Below, piece after piece: positions 1,594-13,289 of a stretch of DNA of 64,000 nucleotides (position 1 is its first letter; each line of letters starts with the position of its first letter). The position numbers and the translations under genes were made by a program. The DNA is from Thermoplasma volcanium GSS1. GTDB taxonomy: Archaea > Thermoplasmatota > Thermoplasmata > Thermoplasmatales > Thermoplasmataceae. The DNA lies in NCBI RefSeq assembly GCF_000011185.1, contig NC_002689.2, positions 1,364,001 to 1,428,000 of the forward strand, read 5' to 3'. Below the pieces are notes generated by a model. It was not told the origin of the DNA and did no database searches. It saw nothing but the letters and a program-made list of their open reading frames with translations.

Positions 1594-3885
1594 TTATTGA
1601 AAAATTAATTGCAACTCATTTACCCCTTCTTCTATTTCGAATAAGTTATCTTCTATGTACTTAGTATTTCCGTTTATAGTAATGCCCTTAACGTAAACTC
1701 CGTGGAATTTAATTGTAACCGCTTTGATGCTACTTCCACGATGTATATTTATTTTTCCGTCTTTTGATACAGAAATATCGAGTTCTGAGTCTTCTCCTCC
1801 AGCATCTATGTAAATTTTTGCAGATTCTCCCTCTTCGGAATGGAATACGTGCAGGATTAATTTCCCCTCATCCCTTGCTATTATTGATCCGGATCTAATG
1901 TATATAGGTATCATGTTAAGAGGCGCTTCTACCTTAATTTCACCAAATACCTTTTCATCACTGTATAGGTTATACCATAATCCGGGTGGAAGCTTAACTA
2001 TCCTCGAAGTTGAATGCTCTGAAAAAATAGGTGCTACAAGTATGGAATCGCCAAAGAGATATTCATCATCGACAAGAAGCATATCCGGATTGCTACTATA
2101 CCAGTATACTGGTCTGATCATAGGTATCCCAGTAATGGATGAAGATATAGCCTCACTGTATATCTGGGGGAGGAATGAGTGCCTAAGTTTAATTATGTCT
2201 CTGATTATTCCCAAGTACTTTTCTCCAAACTCCCACGGTTCTCTCCTCTTTGACTTTTTATTGGAATGAACGCGGAATAACGGGTAAAAAATCGCTGACT
2301 GCAGCCATCTAATAAATAGTTCAGCGTCAGGAGATCCAACAAAACCACCAATATCGCAGCCAGTTAGTGAAATTCCAGAAGCTGACATGTGAAGTATAGT
2401 AAGCAGGTTTTGCTTCATCTCTTTCCAGCTGGTTTCAGTATCACCGGTCCAAATCCATGCGTACCTGCTTATTCCAGCCCAACCGGATCGTGAAAGTATG
2501 AATGGTCTTTCCGTTTTGGATAAGTGGTCATACGCGGCCTTATCCATATAGTAACCGAAGAGATTATGGACTTCGCTGTGAGAGCCATTAGATTGCGCCG
2601 CTGATAGTGCCATACTGTTGTCACCCCAGGCCACGAATATGGCAGGCTCGTTCATGTCGTGCCAAAATCCGGATACACCGTTCTTTTTCATGAAGTCGTA
2701 TTTTTTTCCCCACCACTCCCTTACATCATTGCGAGAAAAATCAGGAAAAGCTGCCATCAACGGCCAAACGGGTGCATAGAATATATTTCCGTCAGGGTAT
2801 TTTATGAAATAACCATTTTTAACAGCTTCGTCATATATTGTGTATCCTGGTTCCATCTTGACGTTTGGTTCCATTATCGTTATCAGACGGACTCCCCTTT
2901 CTCCCAAGTATTTCGTTAGATCTTTCACGTCCCAGAATCTATCGGAATTAAAGGTGAAAACCTTGAATTCATCCATGTAATCTATGTCCAAATATATTGC
3001 AGACAGGGGTATACCAAGCTCATTAAACCTATCTACTATAGACCTTACCTCTGCAGAGCTCATATAGCTATACCTTGACTGCTGAAACCCGAAAGCCCAG
3101 TATGGCGGCCTGTACGGTTTTCCAGTGATTTCTGAGAACTTAGAATATATCGATTTTATATCCCCTGTTATAACATAATATACCATGGGCTTCGATTTGA
3201 AATAAAACGTCACTTTATCTTCTCTTGAGAACCCTATATCTACGGTTGCATCTCCTGCATTCTCGAAAAAGATTAGGTACGAAACATCATCATGCAAGTG
3301 GAGCAGAACGGGTATATTTAGGTATAATGGATCAGAATCTGGCCCGTATGATCCTTTTGCATCGTGGTTCCAGAGTCTATAAACGTGACCTCTTAGGTTT
3401 ATTGGTCCAGCCTTCTCGCCTAGGCCAGAAAATAGATCGTCACCGAATATTCTCAGGCTCTGAGACAGGACTTCGTTGAAATCTGGAATATACCCCTGAT
3501 AAATCAACTTTCCGTCTTGATCTTTCAGATACAATCCATTCTCATCAAGTGAGATGGAATAATTTCCTACAGACACCGTATTATCGTGCAGCTGCAGATC
3601 ATCAAATTCTATGTTCTCCACGGGAAGTTTCGGGCCGTCTGTCCAGGAAAACTTAAAGACGCCGTCGCCCCTTGCCTCTACCTTAAGGTCATAATTTTCA
3701 AAGTGGAAGTATACATATTTATTCGATTTTTCTGCAGATAGAAATCGACCTATTTTTTTCATATTTAATTTTTTATAATAAATAGAGTCGTATCTATCTC
3801 TAGTAAGGGAATAGCTAATCCTATCCTTCAGCATTCCGTCTCCAAATGTTTTTAAGAACCCATCAATTTCTTCGAGAAGTTGCAT
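1594..3885 (-). CDS. Alpha-glucosidase, glycoside hydrolase family 31
   Basis: Predicted to release glucose from alpha-glucosides such as maltose and malto-oligosaccharides. The 763-residue frame has the GH31 order: N-terminal beta-sandwich, then (beta/alpha)8 barrel with FGFQQSRYSY, the signature WHDMNEP whose Asp410 is the expected nucleophile, and WTGD with Asp482 as the expected acid/base, then C-terminal beta domains. No signal peptide is seen, so action in the cytoplasm is likely. An ATG at 3969 would add 28 residues, but a TATA-like box at about 3911-3922 lies inside that extension and about 30 nt before the ATG at 3885, so 3885 is preferred. Glucosidase versus xylosidase or other GH31 specificity is inferred from overall resemblance to archaeal MalA enzymes. 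Confidence 0.9.
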   Translation of the reverse strand: MQLLEEIDGFLKTFGDGMLKDRISYSLTRDRYDSIYYKKLNMKKIGRFLSAEKSNKYVYFHFENYDLKVEARGDGVFKFSWTDGPKLPVENIEFDDLQLHDNTVSVGNYSISLDENGLYLKDQDGKLIYQGYIPDFNEVLSQSLRIFGDDLFSGLGEKAGPINLRGHVYRLWNHDAKGSYGPDSDPLYLNIPVLLHLHDDVSYLIFFENAGDATVDIGFSREDKVTFYFKSKPMVYYVITGDIKSIYSKFSEITGKPYRPPYWAFGFQQSRYSYMSSAEVRSIVDRFNELGIPLSAIYLDIDYMDEFKVFTFNSDRFWDVKDLTKYLGERGVRLITIMEPNVKMEPGYTIYDEAVKNGYFIKYPDGNIFYAPVWPLMAAFPDFSRNDVREWWGKKYDFMKKNGVSGFWHDMNEPAIFVAWGDNSMALSAAQSNGSHSEVHNLFGYYMDKAAYDHLSKTERPFILSRSGWAGISRYAWIWTGDTETSWKEMKQNLLTILHMSASGISLTGCDIGGFVGSPDAELFIRWLQSAIFYPLFRVHSNKKSKRREPWEFGEKYLGIIRDIIKLRHSFLPQIYSEAISSSITGIPMIRPVYWYSSNPDMLLVDDEYLFGDSILVAPIFSEHSTSRIVKLPPGLWYNLYSDEKVFGEIKVEAPLNMIPIYIRSGSIIARDEGKLILHVFHSEEGESAKIYIDAGGEDSELDISVSKDGKINIHRGSSIKAVTIKFHGVYVKGITINGNTKYIEDNLFEIEEGVNELQLIFQ

Positions 3886-3910
3886 ATATATCTGTTGAGT
3901 AAACAATAGT

Positions 3911-3922
3911 AAAATATTAAAT
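3911..3922 (-). promoter_or_regulatory. TATA-like box of the GH31 alpha-glucosidase gene
   Basis: Box TTTAATATTT on the minus strand, about 30 nt before the ATG at 3885. It lies inside the longer open frame and is the main reason for choosing 3885. Confidence 0.5.
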
Positions 3923-4056
3923 TTTTTACCAATCTTAACGGTATTTATTTTGATGTTAATCTTAGGCACCAGTAAATTCTCAATAAACTAATAAAATAAT
4001 TATAAATAAATGTTAATAGAAATATTTAATATAGGGCCCATTGTTGATGCGGTTCA

Positions 4057-5178
4057 CTAAAAATTTTTTCTAGTTGTTTCAAGATGTATTTCCTTCATTT
4101 TTACCCTAGCTTCATGTCTAATCATGTCTATACTGCCAATCTCCCTGTCTTCGACTATAGTAAACGCTCTACCTGCTGCACCCATTCTAGCAGTCCTGCC
4201 AACGCGATGTACGTAAACCCTAGGGTCGTCTGGGACATCATAATTTATAATATCTGAAATTCCACCAATATCTAAGCCTCTTGCGGCAACGTTAGTGGCA
4301 ACGAGAAACCTGCCAAAGTTTTTGAACCTGTAAAGCGCTTTTTCTCTCTGGGCTTGAGTCAAGTCTCCGTGCATTATTACGGCATCTTGCCCGTGATTAA
4401 TCAGCGCTTCATATATCATGTTGGCGCCTGCCTTAGTTCTAGAGAATATTATTGACTTTTCAGGCTTGTATTTATCGATGTAGGAGAATAGTGTACGGAG
4501 CTTTCTTTCCCTCCTGCTTACTGCGTAATTATGATCTATGCCATTTACCGTTACCTCATCCTTTGATAAAAATAATATTTCTTCATTATGCATAAAGCCC
4601 TTTGCCAGTTCGATTATTTCTGATGGTATCGTTGCAGAGAAAAGAAATGACTGCCTTTCAACTGGGAGTACATTTATTATCTTCTTAATATCCTCTATAA
4701 ATCCCATGTCAAGCATTTCATCAGCTTCGTCAAGAACAAAATAGGAGACCTTATCAAAATTTAAGATCCCCCTATCTATAAGATCAAGAGTTCTACCAGG
4801 TGTACCGACTATTATATTAGCGCCGCGCAATATCAGTTCAATTTGTTTATTGATTGATACTCCACCGTATACAACAACAGTCCTTATTCCAGATCTTTTG
4901 CCTAAAGCCTCAGAAACCTTTGCAACTTGAACCGCCAGCTCCCTTGTTGGTAGAAGAATAAGAGCTCTTATTCCCTTTTCCTTTGCTGTGTTGTTTATTA
5001 TAGGTATCAAATAAGCAGCCGTCTTTCCAGAGCCTGTCTTTGACCTAACAACTAAGTCAGAGCCTGCAAGAGCAATCGGTATTGCCATAGACTGAACCTC
5101 AGTCGGCTCACTATAACCCGTGCCCCTTATACTTTCAATCAATTCATTCCTTAAATTAAATTCTTCGAACCCTTTCAT
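4057..5178 (-). CDS. DEAD-box RNA helicase
   Basis: An ATP-dependent RNA helicase of superfamily 2, about 373 residues and hence little more than the two RecA-like domains. All motifs are in order: Q motif (GYSEPTEVQ), motif I SKTGSGKT, Ia PTRELA, Ib TPGR, II DEAD, III SAT, then IV-VI in the second domain including ARGLDI and HRVGRTARMG. There is no long accessory extension, so it resembles the minimal archaeal DEAD-box helicases that act in ribosome assembly or RNA turnover. A GTG at 5187 is in frame, but the ATG at 5178 gives a conventional start. It is read alone, divergent from the thiolase gene across a 270-bp AT-rich gap. Confidence 0.93.
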   Translation of the reverse strand: MKGFEEFNLRNELIESIRGTGYSEPTEVQSMAIPIALAGSDLVVRSKTGSGKTAAYLIPIINNTAKEKGIRALILLPTRELAVQVAKVSEALGKRSGIRTVVVYGGVSINKQIELILRGANIIVGTPGRTLDLIDRGILNFDKVSYFVLDEADEMLDMGFIEDIKKIINVLPVERQSFLFSATIPSEIIELAKGFMHNEEILFLSKDEVTVNGIDHNYAVSRRERKLRTLFSYIDKYKPEKSIIFSRTKAGANMIYEALINHGQDAVIMHGDLTQAQREKALYRFKNFGRFLVATNVAARGLDIGGISDIINYDVPDDPRVYVHRVGRTARMGAAGRAFTIVEDREIGSIDMIRHEARVKMKEIHLETTRKNF

Positions 5179-5450
5179 TTCCAACACTGTTTAGTAAAAA
5201 ATAGATTGCAACATGCTTCTCTATTTTTATTCCATATCGTCATTCTGGTCTTATATAAAAAGATGCCTCGCTTGCTTAGAATTTTTCATTAATTATCTAG
5301 TGGCATCGCAATATACAGAGATATATAACATTATAAAACTATTTAATATTTAAAATCACTATATTATAATATCAGAATATAAATACATGATAATTTGAAT
5401 ATTGTCAGGTTAAGCTTATATTAGTTCTACCACTTATTCATTTCGATACT
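5179..5450. promoter_or_regulatory. Divergent promoter region between helicase and thiolase genes
   Basis: About 270 bp of AT-rich sequence. A box at 5414-5422 (GCTTATATT) serves the thiolase, 33 nt from its ATG. Several further boxes such as TTATATAAAAAG near 5260 could serve the helicase or be spurious. No open frame or repeat is seen. Confidence 0.45.
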
Positions 5451-6641
5451 ATGGAAAACGAAAATGTCTATTTGGTTGACTTTAAGCGCACAGCCTTTTC
5501 GCGCTCCAGGCCTAATGATCCGGAGAGGGATGTCTTTAATTCCTTAAGAATGGACGAAGCAATGGCAAAATTGATAAATATAGTGATCGATGAAACTGGT
5601 ATAAGACCGGAAGAAATCAATGATGTAATCACAGGATGCGCCCTGCAACAGGATGAGAATTGGACTTATGGCGGAAGGCATCCAATTCTACTAGCCAACC
5701 TCCCTGACAATGTTCCTGGAATGGCACTTGACAGAGCATGCTCTTCATCATTGAACGCCATAACAATTGGTGCTATGGAGATAATGACCGGAAATGCAGA
5801 TATCGTTATGGCTGGCGGATACGAACATATGACCCACGTACCGATGAGCAACAGTCCGTTTCTGAAGCCAAATGTTAAGCTACTTGTCAGGCCAGAATAT
5901 ATGCACTACGATATGAATACGGGTTATTCTATGGGGCTTACTGCTGAAAAACTCGCTTCGCTCCACCACATTGGAAGGGAAGAAATGGATCAGTATGCCC
6001 TTAGGAGCCATCAGCTGGCATCTAAGGCCTTGGACGATGGATACTTCAAAGGGGAGATCGTTCCAATGGAAGTCGAGATAGGAGGAGAGACAAAGATAAT
6101 CGATTCGGATCAGAGTATAAGGAAGAACACGTCGCTAGAGGAGATGCAGAAACTTAGACCTGCATTCAAGGACGATGGTGTAATTACTGCCGGGAATTCT
6201 TCCCCGTTAAATGCAGGTGCATCCTTAACACTGCTCATGTCGGAGAAGAAGGTGAAAGAATATGGCCTTAAACCTCTCTCGCGTATAGTGTCATTCGGCT
6301 GGGCTGGAGTAGATCCCAGCATAATGGGTGAAGGCCCAGTCCCAGCTACTCAAAAGGCACTTGCCAAGGCAGGAATGAAAGTAGAGGACATAGATTACTG
6401 GGAGATCAATGAAGCCTTCGCAGTAGTCGTCCTAAATGCAATGAAGGAGCTCGGAATAGAAGAAAACAAGGTAAACATTCATGGTGGGGGTATATCGATA
6501 GGCCATCCGCTTGGTGCAACCGGAGCTAGGATAGCCGGAACGCTGTCTAGAATATTGAACGAAAAGCAAGCTGAGTATGGAGTTGCTACGCTCTGTGTTG
6601 GAGGGGGGCAAGGATACTCGGTGATTTTTGAGAGGTATTAA
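5451..6641 (+). CDS. fadA: Thiolase (acetyl-CoA C-acyltransferase)
   Basis: Catalyses thiolytic cleavage of 3-ketoacyl-CoA to acetyl-CoA and a shortened acyl-CoA, the last step of beta-oxidation; the condensation direction is also possible. The 396-residue length is normal. The catalytic residues are present: Cys97 in DRACSSS, NEAF, His352 in GHPLGATGAR and Cys382 in LCVGGGQG. The next gene, an acyl-CoA dehydrogenase, starts two bases after its stop, and the region also holds ligase and hydratase/dehydrogenase genes, which favours a degradative role. It differs from the archaeal thiolase-like proteins lacking the second Cys that pair with HMG-CoA synthase. Confidence 0.9.
   Translation: MENENVYLVDFKRTAFSRSRPNDPERDVFNSLRMDEAMAKLINIVIDETGIRPEEINDVITGCALQQDENWTYGGRHPILLANLPDNVPGMALDRACSSSLNAITIGAMEIMTGNADIVMAGGYEHMTHVPMSNSPFLKPNVKLLVRPEYMHYDMNTGYSMGLTAEKLASLHHIGREEMDQYALRSHQLASKALDDGYFKGEIVPMEVEIGGETKIIDSDQSIRKNTSLEEMQKLRPAFKDDGVITAGNSSPLNAGASLTLLMSEKKVKEYGLKPLSRIVSFGWAGVDPSIMGEGPVPATQKALAKAGMKVEDIDYWEINEAFAVVVLNAMKELGIEENKVNIHGGGISIGHPLGATGARIAGTLSRILNEKQAEYGVATLCVGGGQGYSVIFERY
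6630..6636 (+). promoter_or_regulatory. Ribosome-binding site deciding the acyl-CoA dehydrogenase start
   Basis: GAGAGGT lies six bases before the ATG at 6643, within the end of the thiolase gene. It supports the ATG over the in-frame TTG at 6628. Confidence 0.55.
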
Positions 6642-6642
6642 T

Positions 6643-7752
6643 ATGAATTTTGAACTTGATGAAAACCTATTAAACTTTAGGAAAAAGATAGAAGAGTTTG
6701 CGAAAAGAGAATTTACCGAAGATTTAGCTTCGAAATACGATGAGCAAGAACACTACCCAGAAGATGTCTTTACGAAGATGATGTCCGAAGGAATTTTTGA
6801 TTACACGAATCCCTGGAACATACTTATGGCGACAGAAGCTTTATGCAAGTACGATGCTGGCATGGGAATATCTATGCTCGTACCATTCTTCGGAAATGAG
6901 GTAATTGCACTTTTTGGCAATGATGAACAGAAGAAAAAGTACTTGAGCAGAGTTTTTGCTGGGAAAGCAAAAATGGGCCTAGCTGTTACAGAGCCAGGTG
7001 GTGGCAGCGATGTAGCAAACATAAAAACTACCGCTGTAAAAGAGGGAGATCATTATGTACTAAATGGATCAAAGATGTTTATTACAAACGGAGACATAGC
7101 GGATTTCTTTGTTCTCCTTGCAAGGACGTCTCAGGAAAAAAAGAAACACCACGGTATGAGTGTATTTATAGTAGAGAGGGACTTTGAAGGCTTTAGATCT
7201 AACAAGATAAAGGGTAAACTCGGAGTTAGAGCAACTGATACCGCTGAGCTCACATTGGAAAATGTAAAGGTACCTGAGGAGAACCTGGTTGGTGAACCTG
7301 GCAGAGGCTTTTACTATATAATGACGTTCTTTGACATAAGCAGGGCCTATGTTGCTGCACAAGCTCTCGGCATCGCCGAGGGAATACTCGAAAGAACTTT
7401 ATCCATACTACAGAAGGATGGCCCGCTGACATCTCAGCCTGAAAGAGTGCAGTTTACTATAGCAGATATGGCCACTAGGATTGAGGCAACAAAACTTTTA
7501 ACTTATGAGGCTGCATCTTACATATTTAACTTCAACCCAAACCCTGCTGTGACGAGCATGGCGAAGGCATACGCCGCCGAAACAGCCGTTTACGTATCAA
7601 GAAAGGCTATGGAGGTAACGGGAATCGACGGCCTTACATCTAGCATTGAGAGATCGTTTAGGGATGCTAAAATAATGGAGATATGGGAAGGCACGAGCGA
7701 AATAGAAAAGCTTGTAATAGCCAGAATGCTTAAAACAGGTGATGTCCAGTGA
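6643..7752 (+). CDS. Acyl-CoA dehydrogenase (catalytically complete)
   Basis: FAD-dependent first step of beta-oxidation, making trans-2-enoyl-CoA and passing electrons to ETF. The 369-residue protein has the helical N-domain, the middle beta-domain with TEPGGGSD and NGSKMFITNG, and a C-terminal helical bundle ending in IWEGTSEI, where Glu349 is the expected catalytic base of short/medium-chain enzymes. An in-frame TTG 15 nt upstream is less likely than the ATG at 6643, which follows a GAGAGGT ribosome site at 6630-6636. The gene is in a tight operon with the thiolase and overlaps the following degenerate acyl-CoA dehydrogenase at TGATG. No ETF gene lies in this window. Confidence 0.92.
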   Translation: MNFELDENLLNFRKKIEEFAKREFTEDLASKYDEQEHYPEDVFTKMMSEGIFDYTNPWNILMATEALCKYDAGMGISMLVPFFGNEVIALFGNDEQKKKYLSRVFAGKAKMGLAVTEPGGGSDVANIKTTAVKEGDHYVLNGSKMFITNGDIADFFVLLARTSQEKKKHHGMSVFIVERDFEGFRSNKIKGKLGVRATDTAELTLENVKVPEENLVGEPGRGFYYIMTFFDISRAYVAAQALGIAEGILERTLSILQKDGPLTSQPERVQFTIADMATRIEATKLLTYEAASYIFNFNPNPAVTSMAKAYAAETAVYVSRKAMEVTGIDGLTSSIERSFRDAKIMEIWEGTSEIEKLVIARMLKTGDVQ

Positions 7753-8758
7753 TGGAAGAGTACGAAATATTACGTAACACTGTTAGAGAGTTCGCCAATA
7801 AAGAGATAGAAAACATTTCGAAGGATATCGAGATAAAAGGCATACCTGATACACTTGTCCTCAAACTCGGCGCCCAGGGTTTCCTTGCTGCAACTGCTCC
7901 TCAGGAAAAAGGCGGTTCAGGCTTAGACGAATTAGGTTACATAATAGTGCTTGAGGAGCTCTCTAGAGTTTCGCCGTCAGTAGCTATGAAGGTTTTCCTG
8001 ACCAACTTCTATCTACAGCTAAATCCGGATGACGATGTGAATTATATCGCTTCCGGAAAGAAGAGGGTATCAGTAGCATTCCCAGACTATTATGCCAGGG
8101 GAAAATCTGGCAAGGTTGAAGTCTCAGCAGGCAAGATAAATGCTACCAAGGAAAACGTAATAAATGCAAATGTCGAAGCAATAGCATTGACGGATGGTAA
8201 AGATGTTTACGCTGTAAGCAAGGAATAAGTACAAAGGAAAAGAGGCATATGGGCATACGTGGCCTTGATCTTTCGGACTTATTCGTGTCTGGTGCTTCAT
8301 ACAAAAGGCTTGGCTCAGAGGAAATGATGAGATCCACATTCCAGAAGCTCGATAGAGAGATAGCTGCAATTTTCCTTGGCTTGTCCGATGGTACCATATC
8401 TAAGGCTATAGAATATTCAAAGGTAAGGACTGCATTTGATCATCCCCTGAAAGATTATTCACCTATATTCGACGACCTAGTTTCCTTGAAGATGGAGATC
8501 GATGTGCTTAGGTTCTATCTTTATGGATCGGGTGACGAGTATTCAAGAGCACTCATAAAGATCAAGGCAAAAGATCTGTCTCTTAGAGCCACTAGGGTCT
8601 CCCTTCAGACTCATGGCGGCTATGGATACATACACGACTTCGGGATAGAAAAATACTATAGGGATGCTATGGCACTTTCAGTCTATTTCGGCCAGGACAA
8701 GTACGAAAATATGGTACTATCAGATCACATCTTCGGAGAGGCAGGGGGCATAATCTGA
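7752..8758 (+). pseudogene. Second acyl-CoA dehydrogenase, frameshifted and lacking catalytic motifs
   Basis: Two open frames, 7752-8228 and about 8222-8758, join into one acyl-CoA dehydrogenase-like protein of about 335 residues if one base is gained near 8220: the first frame ends AVSK and the second continues GISTKEKRHMGIRG, a normal family sequence. The N-terminal helical domain and the C-terminal bundle with THGGYGYIHDFGIEKYYRDA are recognisable. The middle domain is shortened and lacks the TEPxxGSD flavin-binding motif, and the C-terminal segment reads VYFGQDKYENM where the active enzyme has the catalytic Glu. So even if the frame were restored it should be inactive or a structural partner of the preceding enzyme, whose stop it overlaps. 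A GTG at 7749 is an alternative start. Whether the frameshift is real or a sequence error cannot be settled here. Confidence 0.8.
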
Positions 8759-9161: not shown

Positions 9162-9563
9162 CTAAGACCTGTACAGGAAGTATACTCCTGTCGATTTTGA
9201 GGAGAGCAAGTTTTCCCCATCATAGACCAATACTTCCACGTATGCGATGCTTTTTCCAATCCTATCAACTCTTGAAATGAACCTTACGGGACCCTTTGCT
9301 ATGGGTCTCATGAACTCTGTGTTGAAACTCACCGTTACCTGATTTACTATGCCTGGATAAGTCATGGCTGACAGCCCACCGATTGCATCGGAAATAGCCA
9401 TAACTGCTCCACCATTCATTATTTCACCTATTCTGAGCAGGTTATTGCGTAGCGGGACGATTATGGAAATTTCCCCCTCTCTTATGTACTCCGGTTCAAA
9501 TTGAATTGTTTTTAAGAAGCCGTCAAGACTGAAAAGATTTTTAAGGTCAGAGCCGTCAAACAT
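9162..9563 (-). CDS. Hotdog-fold thioesterase, PaaI-like
   Basis: A 133-residue single hotdog domain of the PaaI/YbgC-like superfamily, expected to hydrolyse an acyl- or aryl-CoA. The central helix segment IMNGGAVMAISDAIGGLSA matches the active-site helix of PaaI-type thioesterases (usually HGG, here NGG, with the helix acidic residue Asp present), followed by a beta strand VTVSFNTEFMRP typical of the fold. It lies among beta-oxidation genes, so a role in freeing CoA from stalled or toxic acyl-CoA is plausible. A TATA-like box centred near 9588, about 25 nt from the ATG, suggests a leaderless message divergent from the acyl-CoA ligase gene. Confidence 0.8.
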   Translation of the reverse strand: MFDGSDLKNLFSLDGFLKTIQFEPEYIREGEISIIVPLRNNLLRIGEIMNGGAVMAISDAIGGLSAMTYPGIVNQVTVSFNTEFMRPIAKGPVRFISRVDRIGKSIAYVEVLVYDGENLLSSKSTGVYFLYRS

Positions 9564-9718: not shown

Positions 9719-11308
9719 ATGAATGGCGATTACCAGCTGACAATAGACAAGATGTTAGAGAGCGGAGTCTCTTCGAATCCAAATCAGATAATAAATTATA
9801 GCGGCAAAAAAACTTTTACTTATAAAGAGTTCAGAGAGAGGGTTTACAGGCTCGCAAAAGCATTAATTTCCATAGGGGTTAAGAAGGGAGACACGGTAGC
9901 AGTCATAGACTGGGATACATACGTATACTTGGAGGCCTACTTTGCTGTTCCAATGATAGGGGCGGTACTGCATACGGTTAACGTTAGGTATCCTCAAGAT
10001 CTTATATACTACACAATGGATCACGCCGAGGATAAGTATGTTATAGTAAGGGACGAATTTGTCCCTATTCTCTCAAAGAATAAGGAGGCTTTCTACTTCA
10101 TAAAGGGCTGGATTATATATTCCGAATACGGGAATGTCCCAGACGAACTTTCTCCAAAGTACATCTATGATGAGTTGATGTCGAAAAACTACGATATCGA
10201 ACTTCCAGAAATATCGGAAAACGATCTAGCAACGACCTTCTACACATCCGGAACTACTGGAATTCCAAAAGGTGTACAGTTTACACACAGGCAGATAGTT
10301 TTGCACGCAATATCATCCGGCTTGGCACTATCTGACAGGCCTATTAGCCTGACTGCAGATGACGTCATAATGCCGTTGGTGCCAATGTTTCATGTTCATG
10401 CTTGGGGAGTTCCTTATATGACAATAATGAGCGGCCGGCAATATGTCCTTCCTGGTCGTTATGACTTCGATCATATAATAGATCTTATCGCACAAGAAAA
10501 TATCACGGTGATAGCCATGGTACCTTCGATCCTCTACATGATCGTTACGAATCCAAATGTAGGGAAGATAGCTGGGAGAAAGATAAGAGCGATAATAGGA
10601 GGCGGAGCTCTTCCTGAAGGCCTCCAGAAAGCTGCAGAAAAGCTTGGTATAATGGCAATATCTGGTTATGGCCTCTCTGAGACTGCCCCTATACTTACGC
10701 TAGCTACATACAACTCTGATGTCAAGAAGCTCCCACTTGAAGAGCAAAAGAAGTATCACCTCAAGACTGGAATACCAATACCGCTTGTACAGCTCCGTGT
10801 TATCGATGACAAATGGAACGATGTGCCAAGAGATGAGAAAACCATAGGCGAGATCGTGGTAAGGGCGCCCTGGTTGACGTCTGTGTATGTAAAGAACAAA
10901 GAGGGTACTGAAGCTTTGTGGAAGGGCGGCTGGATGCACACAGGTGATTTGGCTGTTATGGATAAGTTTGGATACATTAAGATAGTTGACAGAGAAAAGG
11001 ATGCGGTAAAGTCTGGCGGGGAGTTTATACCATCACTTATACTAGAAGATGCAATAAGTGCGTGTCCTGGTGTTGTTGAAAACGCTGTCGTTGGAAAGCC
11101 CCATGAGAAGTGGGGAGAGAGGCCGGTAGCCTTCTATACAGGTACTGCTAAGCCAGAGGAGATAAGAAAATGCTTGGAAGATATTGTGAGGCAGGGAAGA
11201 ATTGCAAAATTTTGGATTCCAGACGACTTCATAAACGTAAAAGAATTTGTAAAGACCAGTACTGGCAAAATAGACAAAAAAGTACTCAGGGAAATGTTGA
11301 AAAAATAA
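9719..11308 (+). CDS. Fatty acyl-CoA synthetase / AMP-forming ligase
   Basis: Activates a carboxylic acid with ATP to an acyl-adenylate and then to acyl-CoA. The 529-residue protein belongs to the ANL superfamily: motif YTSGTTGIPKGV at about 175-186, a GYGLSET motif in the middle, WMHTGD followed by VDREKD and VKSGGEFI, and a C-terminal domain ending TSTGKIDKK, where Lys517 is the expected adenylation lysine. The surrounding beta-oxidation genes favour medium- or long-chain fatty acids. A TATA-like box at 9687-9695 lies 28 nt before the ATG. It converges with the hydroxyacyl-CoA dehydrogenase fusion, with stops two bases apart. Confidence 0.9.
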   Translation: MNGDYQLTIDKMLESGVSSNPNQIINYSGKKTFTYKEFRERVYRLAKALISIGVKKGDTVAVIDWDTYVYLEAYFAVPMIGAVLHTVNVRYPQDLIYYTMDHAEDKYVIVRDEFVPILSKNKEAFYFIKGWIIYSEYGNVPDELSPKYIYDELMSKNYDIELPEISENDLATTFYTSGTTGIPKGVQFTHRQIVLHAISSGLALSDRPISLTADDVIMPLVPMFHVHAWGVPYMTIMSGRQYVLPGRYDFDHIIDLIAQENITVIAMVPSILYMIVTNPNVGKIAGRKIRAIIGGGALPEGLQKAAEKLGIMAISGYGLSETAPILTLATYNSDVKKLPLEEQKKYHLKTGIPIPLVQLRVIDDKWNDVPRDEKTIGEIVVRAPWLTSVYVKNKEGTEALWKGGWMHTGDLAVMDKFGYIKIVDREKDAVKSGGEFIPSLILEDAISACPGVVENAVVGKPHEKWGERPVAFYTGTAKPEEIRKCLEDIVRQGRIAKFWIPDDFINVKEFVKTSTGKIDKKVLREMLKK

Positions 11309-11309
11309 A

Positions 11310-13289
11310 TTATTTTCCCTGATAATTAGGCTTTCTTTTTGAAAGGAATGCGGATATGCCTTCCTTCAGATCTTCTGTACCGTACAGAGTTCCCATAGCC
11401 ATAGATTCCATCTCTAGACCATCGTCAAGGGATGTATTGGCGCTTCTAAGCAACAGACGCTTAGCAAGAGCGGCAGATATTGGCGCAACCCTCTCCGATA
11501 TGTCCTTTGCAAACTTCAAAGTTTCAGCATCGATCTCCTGCGGCTTGTATAATCTAGATACTAACCCGATTTCATAAGCCCTTTTGCCGTCAAAGCGCTC
11601 AGCAGTTAAAACGTAATAAGACGCCCTAGATTCGCCAATCAGCTTAGACAGCTTCTGCGAGCCTCCCCAGCCGGGTATGAGACCTAGCGTCACTTCAGGG
11701 AAACCGATCTGCACGTCTTCAGTTGCAACTCGAATATCGCAGGCAAGCGATAGTTCCAGGCCACCACCAAGCACGTACCCTTTCATCTCTGCTATTGTTA
11801 TCTTTGGCATCTCACTCAGAAGCTTGAAGATCCTTTCTCCTTTCCTAGAAAATTCAAGGAAATCGAAGGTACTGGAGAAAAATGAGTCAAGCTGTGCGCC
11901 GGCTGAGAATACTGATCCATTTCCAGTTATTACGACGACATTTATCTCTCTATCATGCCACAGATCGTTTATCTGCTGCTCCAGTGCATCTAGGACAGCC
12001 GAGTTTATGAGATTGTTCTTTGTGTTGTTAAGGCGGAGCACTGCAATCTTTCCATTCCTTTCAAGAATAACTGGGTCAGATGATTCTACGATAGAGGGCT
12101 TTTCCTGTTCAGTCTGTTGTCCTCGCACTGGGGGCTCAAATTTTTCAGATATGAGTGATTTAAGCCTACCTTCTGATATTGACTTGGCGGGCTGGAATAC
12201 CGAAACTCCGAACTTGTTGTATAGAGATTCTAATTTGCTTTTTATCTCCGCATTTGTGAGGCCTTTTGCAACAGTTATGGGGCCGAATGGCCTGTTCATA
12301 CCCAACTTGACGCCTATCTCGATGTCTTCAGGCGAGACGATCTTTTCCTCTATTATTTTCACAGCCTCATTTATCTCGAGCGCAAATATGTCCATAAGCT
12401 CAACGTTTTTAGTAGGCTGGGCGTCTGGTATCTGGGCCTTACCATTAACCCACTTGTAGAAACCTTCTCCTGTCTTTAGGCCCAGCTTCTTTTCGTTGTA
12501 GAGTTTGTTGTATACCTGGCATTTAGCATAATCAGGAGAAAGTTCCTTCGCGTAGTATTCTAGGGAATGGTATACAGTATCGATGCCAACGTAATCCATT
12601 AGCTCGTATGGGCCCATAGGAAGTCCCTGAGACCTAGCAAATCTGTCTACTTCCTCAGGTTTCGCTATCCCTTTATCAAGTACAAGGCAGAAGTAAAGTG
12701 ATTCGGGTGCGTTTATCCTGTTGACAACAAATCCTGGGGTATCCTTGTAAACCTTTATAGGTATCTTTCCAATTTTCTTGGAAAAATCATAAACTGCTTC
12801 AAATACTTCGTCTTCAGTATAATCACTCCTTATTACTTCTACCAGTTTCAATACTACTGGAGGGTTGAAGAAATGCATTCCAACGACCTTTCCCTTTTTC
12901 TTTACACCTTCAGCTATCTCTGTCAGCCTTATGTTCGAAGTATTCGTAGCAAGTATGGCATCCTCTTTAGTGCTCTGATCTAACTGCGCGAAAACCTGCC
13001 TTTTTATATCTAGAATCTCTGGCACAGCCTCTATGACGAGATCGGCATCTTTTACAGATTCAGGTATGCTGGTGAAGTAATGTATCCTTCCAAGCACCTT
13101 TGTTTTGTCTGATAGTTTTCCAGACTTTACAAGCCGGTCAAGACTTGCATCAATTTCGGCTTTGGCTTTAGCCAGAACATCATCAGATATATCCTCCAGA
13201 TTAACATCATAGCCAGCAAGCGCTATAGTTTCCGCAATCCCGTGACCCATTATCCCGGATCCAATCACGGTTACTTTACTTATTTCCAA
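11310..13289 (-). CDS. 3-hydroxyacyl-CoA dehydrogenase / enoyl-CoA hydratase fusion
   Basis: One 659-residue protein combining steps two and three of beta-oxidation. Residues 1-290 are the NAD-dependent dehydrogenase: Rossmann motif GSGIMGHG at 10-17 and the HFFNPP motif with His139. Residues about 295-385 are a second dehydrogenase C-terminal repeat. Residues about 405-659 are a crotonase domain with both expected catalytic glutamates, Glu512 in GGGLELSLACD and Glu532 in FPEVTLGLIPGWGG. The order, dehydrogenase first and hydratase last, is the archaeal arrangement and the reverse of bacterial FadB. It follows an SCP2-like gene by six bases, probably as one transcript. Confidence 0.93.
   Translation of the reverse strand: MEISKVTVIGSGIMGHGIAETIALAGYDVNLEDISDDVLAKAKAEIDASLDRLVKSGKLSDKTKVLGRIHYFTSIPESVKDADLVIEAVPEILDIKRQVFAQLDQSTKEDAILATNTSNIRLTEIAEGVKKKGKVVGMHFFNPPVVLKLVEVIRSDYTEDEVFEAVYDFSKKIGKIPIKVYKDTPGFVVNRINAPESLYFCLVLDKGIAKPEEVDRFARSQGLPMGPYELMDYVGIDTVYHSLEYYAKELSPDYAKCQVYNKLYNEKKLGLKTGEGFYKWVNGKAQIPDAQPTKNVELMDIFALEINEAVKIIEEKIVSPEDIEIGVKLGMNRPFGPITVAKGLTNAEIKSKLESLYNKFGVSVFQPAKSISEGRLKSLISEKFEPPVRGQQTEQEKPSIVESSDPVILERNGKIAVLRLNNTKNNLINSAVLDALEQQINDLWHDREINVVVITGNGSVFSAGAQLDSFFSSTFDFLEFSRKGERIFKLLSEMPKITIAEMKGYVLGGGLELSLACDIRVATEDVQIGFPEVTLGLIPGWGGSQKLSKLIGESRASYYVLTAERFDGKRAYEIGLVSRLYKPQEIDAETLKFAKDISERVAPISAALAKRLLLRSANTSLDDGLEMESMAMGTLYGTEDLKEGISAFLSKRKPNYQGK

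Follow-up and report, generated by a model that had tools for sequence, protein, structure and literature searches.

Complementary loss of FAD-site residues in two adjacent acyl-CoA dehydrogenase genes of Thermoplasma volcanium and related archaea

Known two-gene acyl-CoA dehydrogenases and the Thermoplasma volcanium locus

An acyl-CoA dehydrogenase (ACAD) is normally made of four copies of one protein. In the human SCAD and MCAD structures each FAD is held by two neighbouring chains, of which one contributes the TEPxxGSD, ITN and EGTSE segments and the other an Arg, a Phe/Gln and a QxxGG loop. Heteromeric ACADs have so far been described from bacteria degrading steroids and, tentatively, dicarboxylic acids. 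The steroid enzymes ChsE4-ChsE5 (FadE26-FadE27), ChsE1-ChsE2 (FadE28-FadE29) and IpdE1-IpdE2 are also encoded by two adjacent ACAD genes. In ChsE, according to a paper on human LCAD (PMC11153573), the alpha subunit binds the isoalloxazine and the substrate and carries the catalytic Glu, while the beta subunit contacts FAD at its ADP-ribose; the steroid ACAD heterotetramer, with its two FAD sites, is essential for activity (reviewed in PMC8399759). The pimeloyl-CoA dehydrogenase PimC-PimD is likewise a pair, of a large and a small subunit. The Thermoplasma-type archaea described here apparently also use two different proteins, with the same division of labour as the bacterial enzymes, an apparent general fatty-acid operon and the catalytic base placed elsewhere. 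A literature search turned up no report of a heteromeric ACAD in archaea, which is a weak sign of novelty, as subscription literature was mostly beyond its reach.

The locus lies in a 64,000-nucleotide stretch (the window) of the T. volcanium GSS1 genome, a single contig of 1,584,804 bases, and its features are listed in Table 1. As the first-pass annotation had it, the gene preceding the interrupted beta gene is an intact ACAD that overlaps it and has both catalytic motifs. These read TEPGGGSD and WEGTSE, and the overlap is of one base (TGATG), the alpha TGA occupying 7750-7752 and the beta ATG starting at 7752. Alpha has all three Pfam ACAD domains, and its closest solved structures by sequence are of the SCAD/butyryl type (5lnx, 4l1f and 5ol2). 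The two beta frames match the N- and C-terminal ACAD parts (PF02771, PF00441), and Pfam detected no middle domain in beta. The AlphaFold model of an orthologous beta alone, from a metagenome-assembled genome (MAG; L034), is nevertheless a complete ACAD fold (pLDDT 86.7, pTM 0.89) with TM-scores of about 0.85-0.88 to ACADs, SCAD/butyryl-CoA dehydrogenases being among its best fold matches. The ACAD fold is thus assigned to alpha from its Pfam domains and to beta from Pfam plus the full-fold model.

Table 1. Features of the thiolase-alpha-beta cluster and its neighbours (positions in the window)
Feature	Position	Strand	Evidence
Thiolase (acetyl-CoA acyltransferase-like), first gene of the cluster	5451-6641	+	ORF; named by sequence reading, without family-library scan
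Alpha: intact ACAD, 369 aa, predicted catalytic subunit	6643-7752	+	Pfam ACAD N-terminal, middle and C-terminal domains
TEPGGGSD, FAD/substrate motif of alpha	6988-7011	+	T, E, G, S, D in 34/34 alpha orthologues
Catalytic Glu codon of alpha (IWEGTSE), SCAD/MCAD position	7687-7689	+	Glu in alpha 34/34, in beta 0/34
Beta: ACAD-like, predicted catalytically silent, split by one-base deficit	7752-8758	+	ORFs, Pfam, orthologues
Beta first reading frame	7752-8228	+	ORF 7749-8228, frame A, ATG at 7752
One-base deficit site, alignment gap 8218/8219	8214-8228	+	DNA alignment with four congeners
In-frame TAA ending beta first frame	8226-8228	+	Consequence of one-base deficit
Beta second reading frame	8249-8758	+	ORF 8249-8758, frame B
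Beta RTAF, Arg and Phe that reach the partner subunit's FAD in homomeric ACADs	8426-8437	+	Arg, Phe in 34/34 beta
Beta QTHGGYGY, retained partner-FAD loop	8606-8629	+	GG in beta 34/34, Q 31/34; GG in alpha 0/34
Beta site of lost catalytic Glu, Phe here	8687-8689	+	Alignment; Glu in beta 0/34
Thioesterase-like neighbour	9162-9563	-	ORF; named by sequence reading
AMP-forming acyl-CoA ligase-like neighbour	9719-11308	+	ORF; named by sequence reading
3-hydroxyacyl-CoA dehydrogenase/enoyl-CoA hydratase fusion-like neighbour	11310-13289	-	ORF; named by sequence reading

Division of FAD-site residues between alpha and beta

We aligned 19 homomeric ACADs with 34 alpha-beta pairs, the two genes being adjacent in every pair; relatives, with the window counted among them, gave 30 of the pairs, named MAGs gave three, and one is a second copy. 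Each of the T, E, G, S and D residues of TEPxxGSD and the catalytic Glu are present in every alpha, while none of the betas has TEPxxGSD or the Glu, the Glu position being occupied by Phe (18), Leu (8), Gly (3), Ser (2) or others. The absence of both from beta had been noticed in the window, where the product read across the frame junction has Phe at this site; as the loss is held in all 34 pairs, and no relative has regained these residues, it is not a chance loss. The residues reaching the partner's FAD are distributed the other way round: the Arg is found in 34/34 betas, 0/34 alphas and 19/19 homomers, the GG of the loop follows exactly the same pattern, the Phe is present in all betas, and the loop Gln is kept in 31 betas and is mostly Glu in alpha. 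These trans residues are among 21 invariant columns in beta. The cis and trans roles in the archaeal pair are those which we take over from the known ACAD structures.

With this assignment a complete FAD site would occur only in an alpha-beta dimer, which would have exactly one; both homodimers would have none, because alpha lacks the trans set and beta lacks the cis set. Catalytic Glu is thus found in only one of two adjacent ACAD genes in 34 of 34 pairs, the FAD site appears to be split into an isoalloxazine side in alpha and an ADP side in beta as in bacterial control pairs (see below), and neither alpha nor beta has the cis and trans residues together in one chain, unlike the single-gene SCAD/butyryl-CoA dehydrogenases. 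We consider it highly probable that alpha and beta are two subunits of one heteromeric ACAD, most likely alpha2beta2, acting in fatty-acid beta-oxidation, where it would catalyse the first step; complex formation, stoichiometry and substrate are all inferred from sequence. An obligate alpha2beta2-type enzyme is very likely since the residue losses are complementary and since relatives of the known bacterial heteromers are split alike. Alpha would bind the acyl-CoA, hold its FAD at the isoalloxazine end and supply the catalytic Glu, while beta, an ACAD fold without a catalytic site, would lend its Arg, Phe and QxxGG loop in trans to hold the FAD of alpha at the ADP half, giving one complete FAD site per heterodimer. 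It is predicted that alpha expressed alone should fail, and the beta genes labelled as ACADs in Thermoplasma-type genomes are probably not stand-alone enzymes. In one locus (L031) alpha and beta lie in one frame, separated solely by a stop codon, and an AlphaFold model of the two as one chain (pLDDT 80, pTM 0.77, from a shallow alignment of 9 rows) fits a defined two-subunit arrangement.

The interrupted beta gene

The first-pass annotation joined the two beta frames by a one-base change near 8220 and took beta to be broken in this strain or affected by a sequencing error. The DNA alignment with four congeners bears out the change: in all four, beta is uninterrupted and codes for 337 aa, whereas the copy in the window lacks exactly one base at about 8218/8219, the only other length differences being an in-frame gap of 3 bases and the first codon. 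We expanded the comparison to 243 genomes of the phylum, in which the scores fall into two clearly spaced groups, intact members of the beta family above 240 bits and ordinary ACADs at or below about 200 bits. Beta was found in 27 of these genomes, i.e. all 26 of the window's family among those listed and one from another family of the same order, and a search of 61 relatives showed it in additional families of this order as well. Within the sample of 243 genomes, beta is split only in the window's genome and is stop-free in the other 26 carrying it. Beta as a lineage-wide decayed pseudogene was rejected, since the frame is open in the other genomes examined. Separately, the beta of Thermogymnomonas acidicola JCM 13583 (L043) has multiple apparent frameshifts, and the thiolase and ligase are broken there too; with all three genes broken, this likely reflects an error-prone assembly rather than decay specific to beta.

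Beta evolves faster than alpha everywhere, with identities within the genus of about 83% for beta and about 95% for alpha. The raw beta/alpha distance ratio looked higher for the window (about 5 vs 3), but relative-rate counts with six outgroups gave no more changes unique to the window's beta than to those of its congeners (e.g. 23 vs 38), and a quicker drift of beta in this genome was therefore rejected. YN00 estimates of dN/dS were saturated and gave no usable values. As the congener betas are intact and the window's beta shows no excess divergence, the break would be either a very recent mutation or a sequencing error; the deficit is private to this genome and comes without a signal of relaxed selection.

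Whether the frameshift is real, so that this strain no longer has the heteromeric enzyme or is on the way to losing it, is a question to which we would give a yes only slightly less readily than a no: the missing base lies outside any homopolymer, and five other middle-domain ACADs in the genome could cover the loss, while the intact and conserved alpha, and a beta no more diverged than those of the congeners, speak against it. Use of the split gene as two pieces, by re-initiation at the ATG at 8249, or joining of the frames by a programmed -1 shift, is very improbable. There is a GAGG just 5' of this ATG (8240-8251), which lies 20 bases past the premature stop and is absent from the congeners (these read CTC or CTT), but the frame junction has no canonical slippery heptamer, none of the congeners has the split arrangement and the break lies within the middle domain. 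The break, together with the three- to five-fold faster evolution of beta within the genus, could also be read as indicating that alpha is an ordinary homotetrameric ACAD and beta a separate regulatory or scaffolding pseudoenzyme or a decaying duplicate. We regard this as most unlikely, as a homotetramer needs the trans FAD residues which all homomers have and all alphas lack, and as beta, open in other genomes, has kept these same residues invariant.

Gene context, co-inheritance and origin of the pair

In each of the nine loci that we compared, from a congener to a thaumarchaeal MAG, a thiolase gene directly precedes the pair, and the alpha and beta genes often overlap. The thioesterase-like gene is also found beside the pair in the congener locus L151 and in L033 and L034, the acyl-CoA ligase-like gene near the pair in L151, L155 and L031, and the hydroxyacyl-CoA dehydrogenase/hydratase fusion-like gene in L151, L155, L033 and L034. 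This company of thiolase, ligase, dehydrogenase/hydratase and thioesterase genes suggests that the pair serves general fatty-acid beta-oxidation.

Alpha and beta distances are correlated (Mantel test, Spearman 0.62, reached in 0 of 5000 permutations), which partly reflects shared species history. The congener G003 has a second alpha-beta pair (contig C3, L143), both subunits of which fall with a different family of the order in the tree, and two MAGs, one labelled Thaumarchaeota (L033) and the other Euryarchaeota (L034), have the pair as well. Because the second copy groups jointly and these MAGs carry both genes, the pair seems to move between genomes as a unit. The suggestion that this is an archaeal heteromeric ACAD is thereby strengthened by co-inheritance, including apparent co-transfer, in addition to the complementary losses and the likeness to bacterial relatives.

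As a positive control we searched with the NCBIfam PimD and IpdE2 models and took seven pairs from the proteobacterial genomes so recovered; all control genes score below their own model's curated cut-off, and are thus relatives of the PimCD and steroid families rather than certified members. All seven show the same partition, with SEPxxGSD in one subunit only and RxQFG and the QxHG loop in the other only, so that complementary motif loss is shared with PimCD-like loci, and the split of isoalloxazine, substrate and Glu functions from the ADP-side FAD residues is shared with the steroid alpha2beta2 enzymes (PMC11153573, PMC8399759). At the LCAD/IVD-type position the control alphas read Glu-Arg and the archaeal alpha Ser-Arg; at the SCAD/MCAD position the control alphas have Ala or Gly and the archaeal alpha its Glu, so that it does not share the Glu placement of the steroid/PimCD family. 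Alpha scores 95 of 624 bits with the PimC model, and beta 33 of 450 with IpdE2 and 23 of 653 with PimD, none reaching the cut-off. Both archaeal subunits are nearest in sequence to SCAD/butyryl-type homomers (MmgC, 5lnx; 4l1f; 5ol2; CarC, 6fah).

Descent of the archaeal pair from the true steroid/pimeloyl family (ChsE, IpdE, PimCD), whether inherited or transferred, would explain the identical residue split, and AU tests did not reject a single clade of archaeal and control betas (p 0.38) or alphas (p 0.20). We nevertheless think it rather doubtful: the free tree places the archaeal alpha with homomeric SCAD-like ACADs and the archaeal beta apart from the control betas, the catalytic Glu is at the other position, and the scores are far under the family cut-offs. 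A single clade of alpha and beta was also compatible with the AU test (p 0.43), making local duplication a possible source of the two genes. An independent, convergent origin is favoured, and on balance we find it probable that the archaeal heteromer arose separately from the bacterial type when a duplicated SCAD-type homotetramer decayed in complementary ways, serves core beta-oxidation across this thermoacidophile family and has been transferred as a unit to other archaea. The likeness to the steroid-degrading alpha2beta2 enzymes which had first been proposed stands for the residue split; kinship with them is rather doubtful, the archaeal pair being of the SCAD/butyryl type and lying with a thiolase and general fatty-acid genes instead of steroid genes. 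If the origin is indeed independent, a cofactor site at a shared interface can be split in the same way twice, and the pair would be a clean case for testing whether duplicated genes degenerate in complementary ways.

Related ACADs were also seen alongside. The Thaumarchaeota MAG L076 contains a second, distinct adjacent pair with complementary motif loss (3977-5104 and 5164-6363) in reversed gene order; its beta-like protein has GDDGSTLN, RKQFS and HGGYGY but no Glu, its alpha-like protein has TEPGAGSD and EGTND but no RxQFG or GG, and the beta groups with the Thermoplasma betas while the alpha does not. In the window itself, another ACAD of the same genome (51417-52559, minus strand) has a very long tree branch. 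Finally, a Chloroflexi locus (L070) has adjacent ACADs (2756-3904 and 3917-5140) which both contain TEPxxGSD and the Glu, the second having QVHGALGY where QxHGGxGY is expected, and is possibly at an early stage towards a heteromer.
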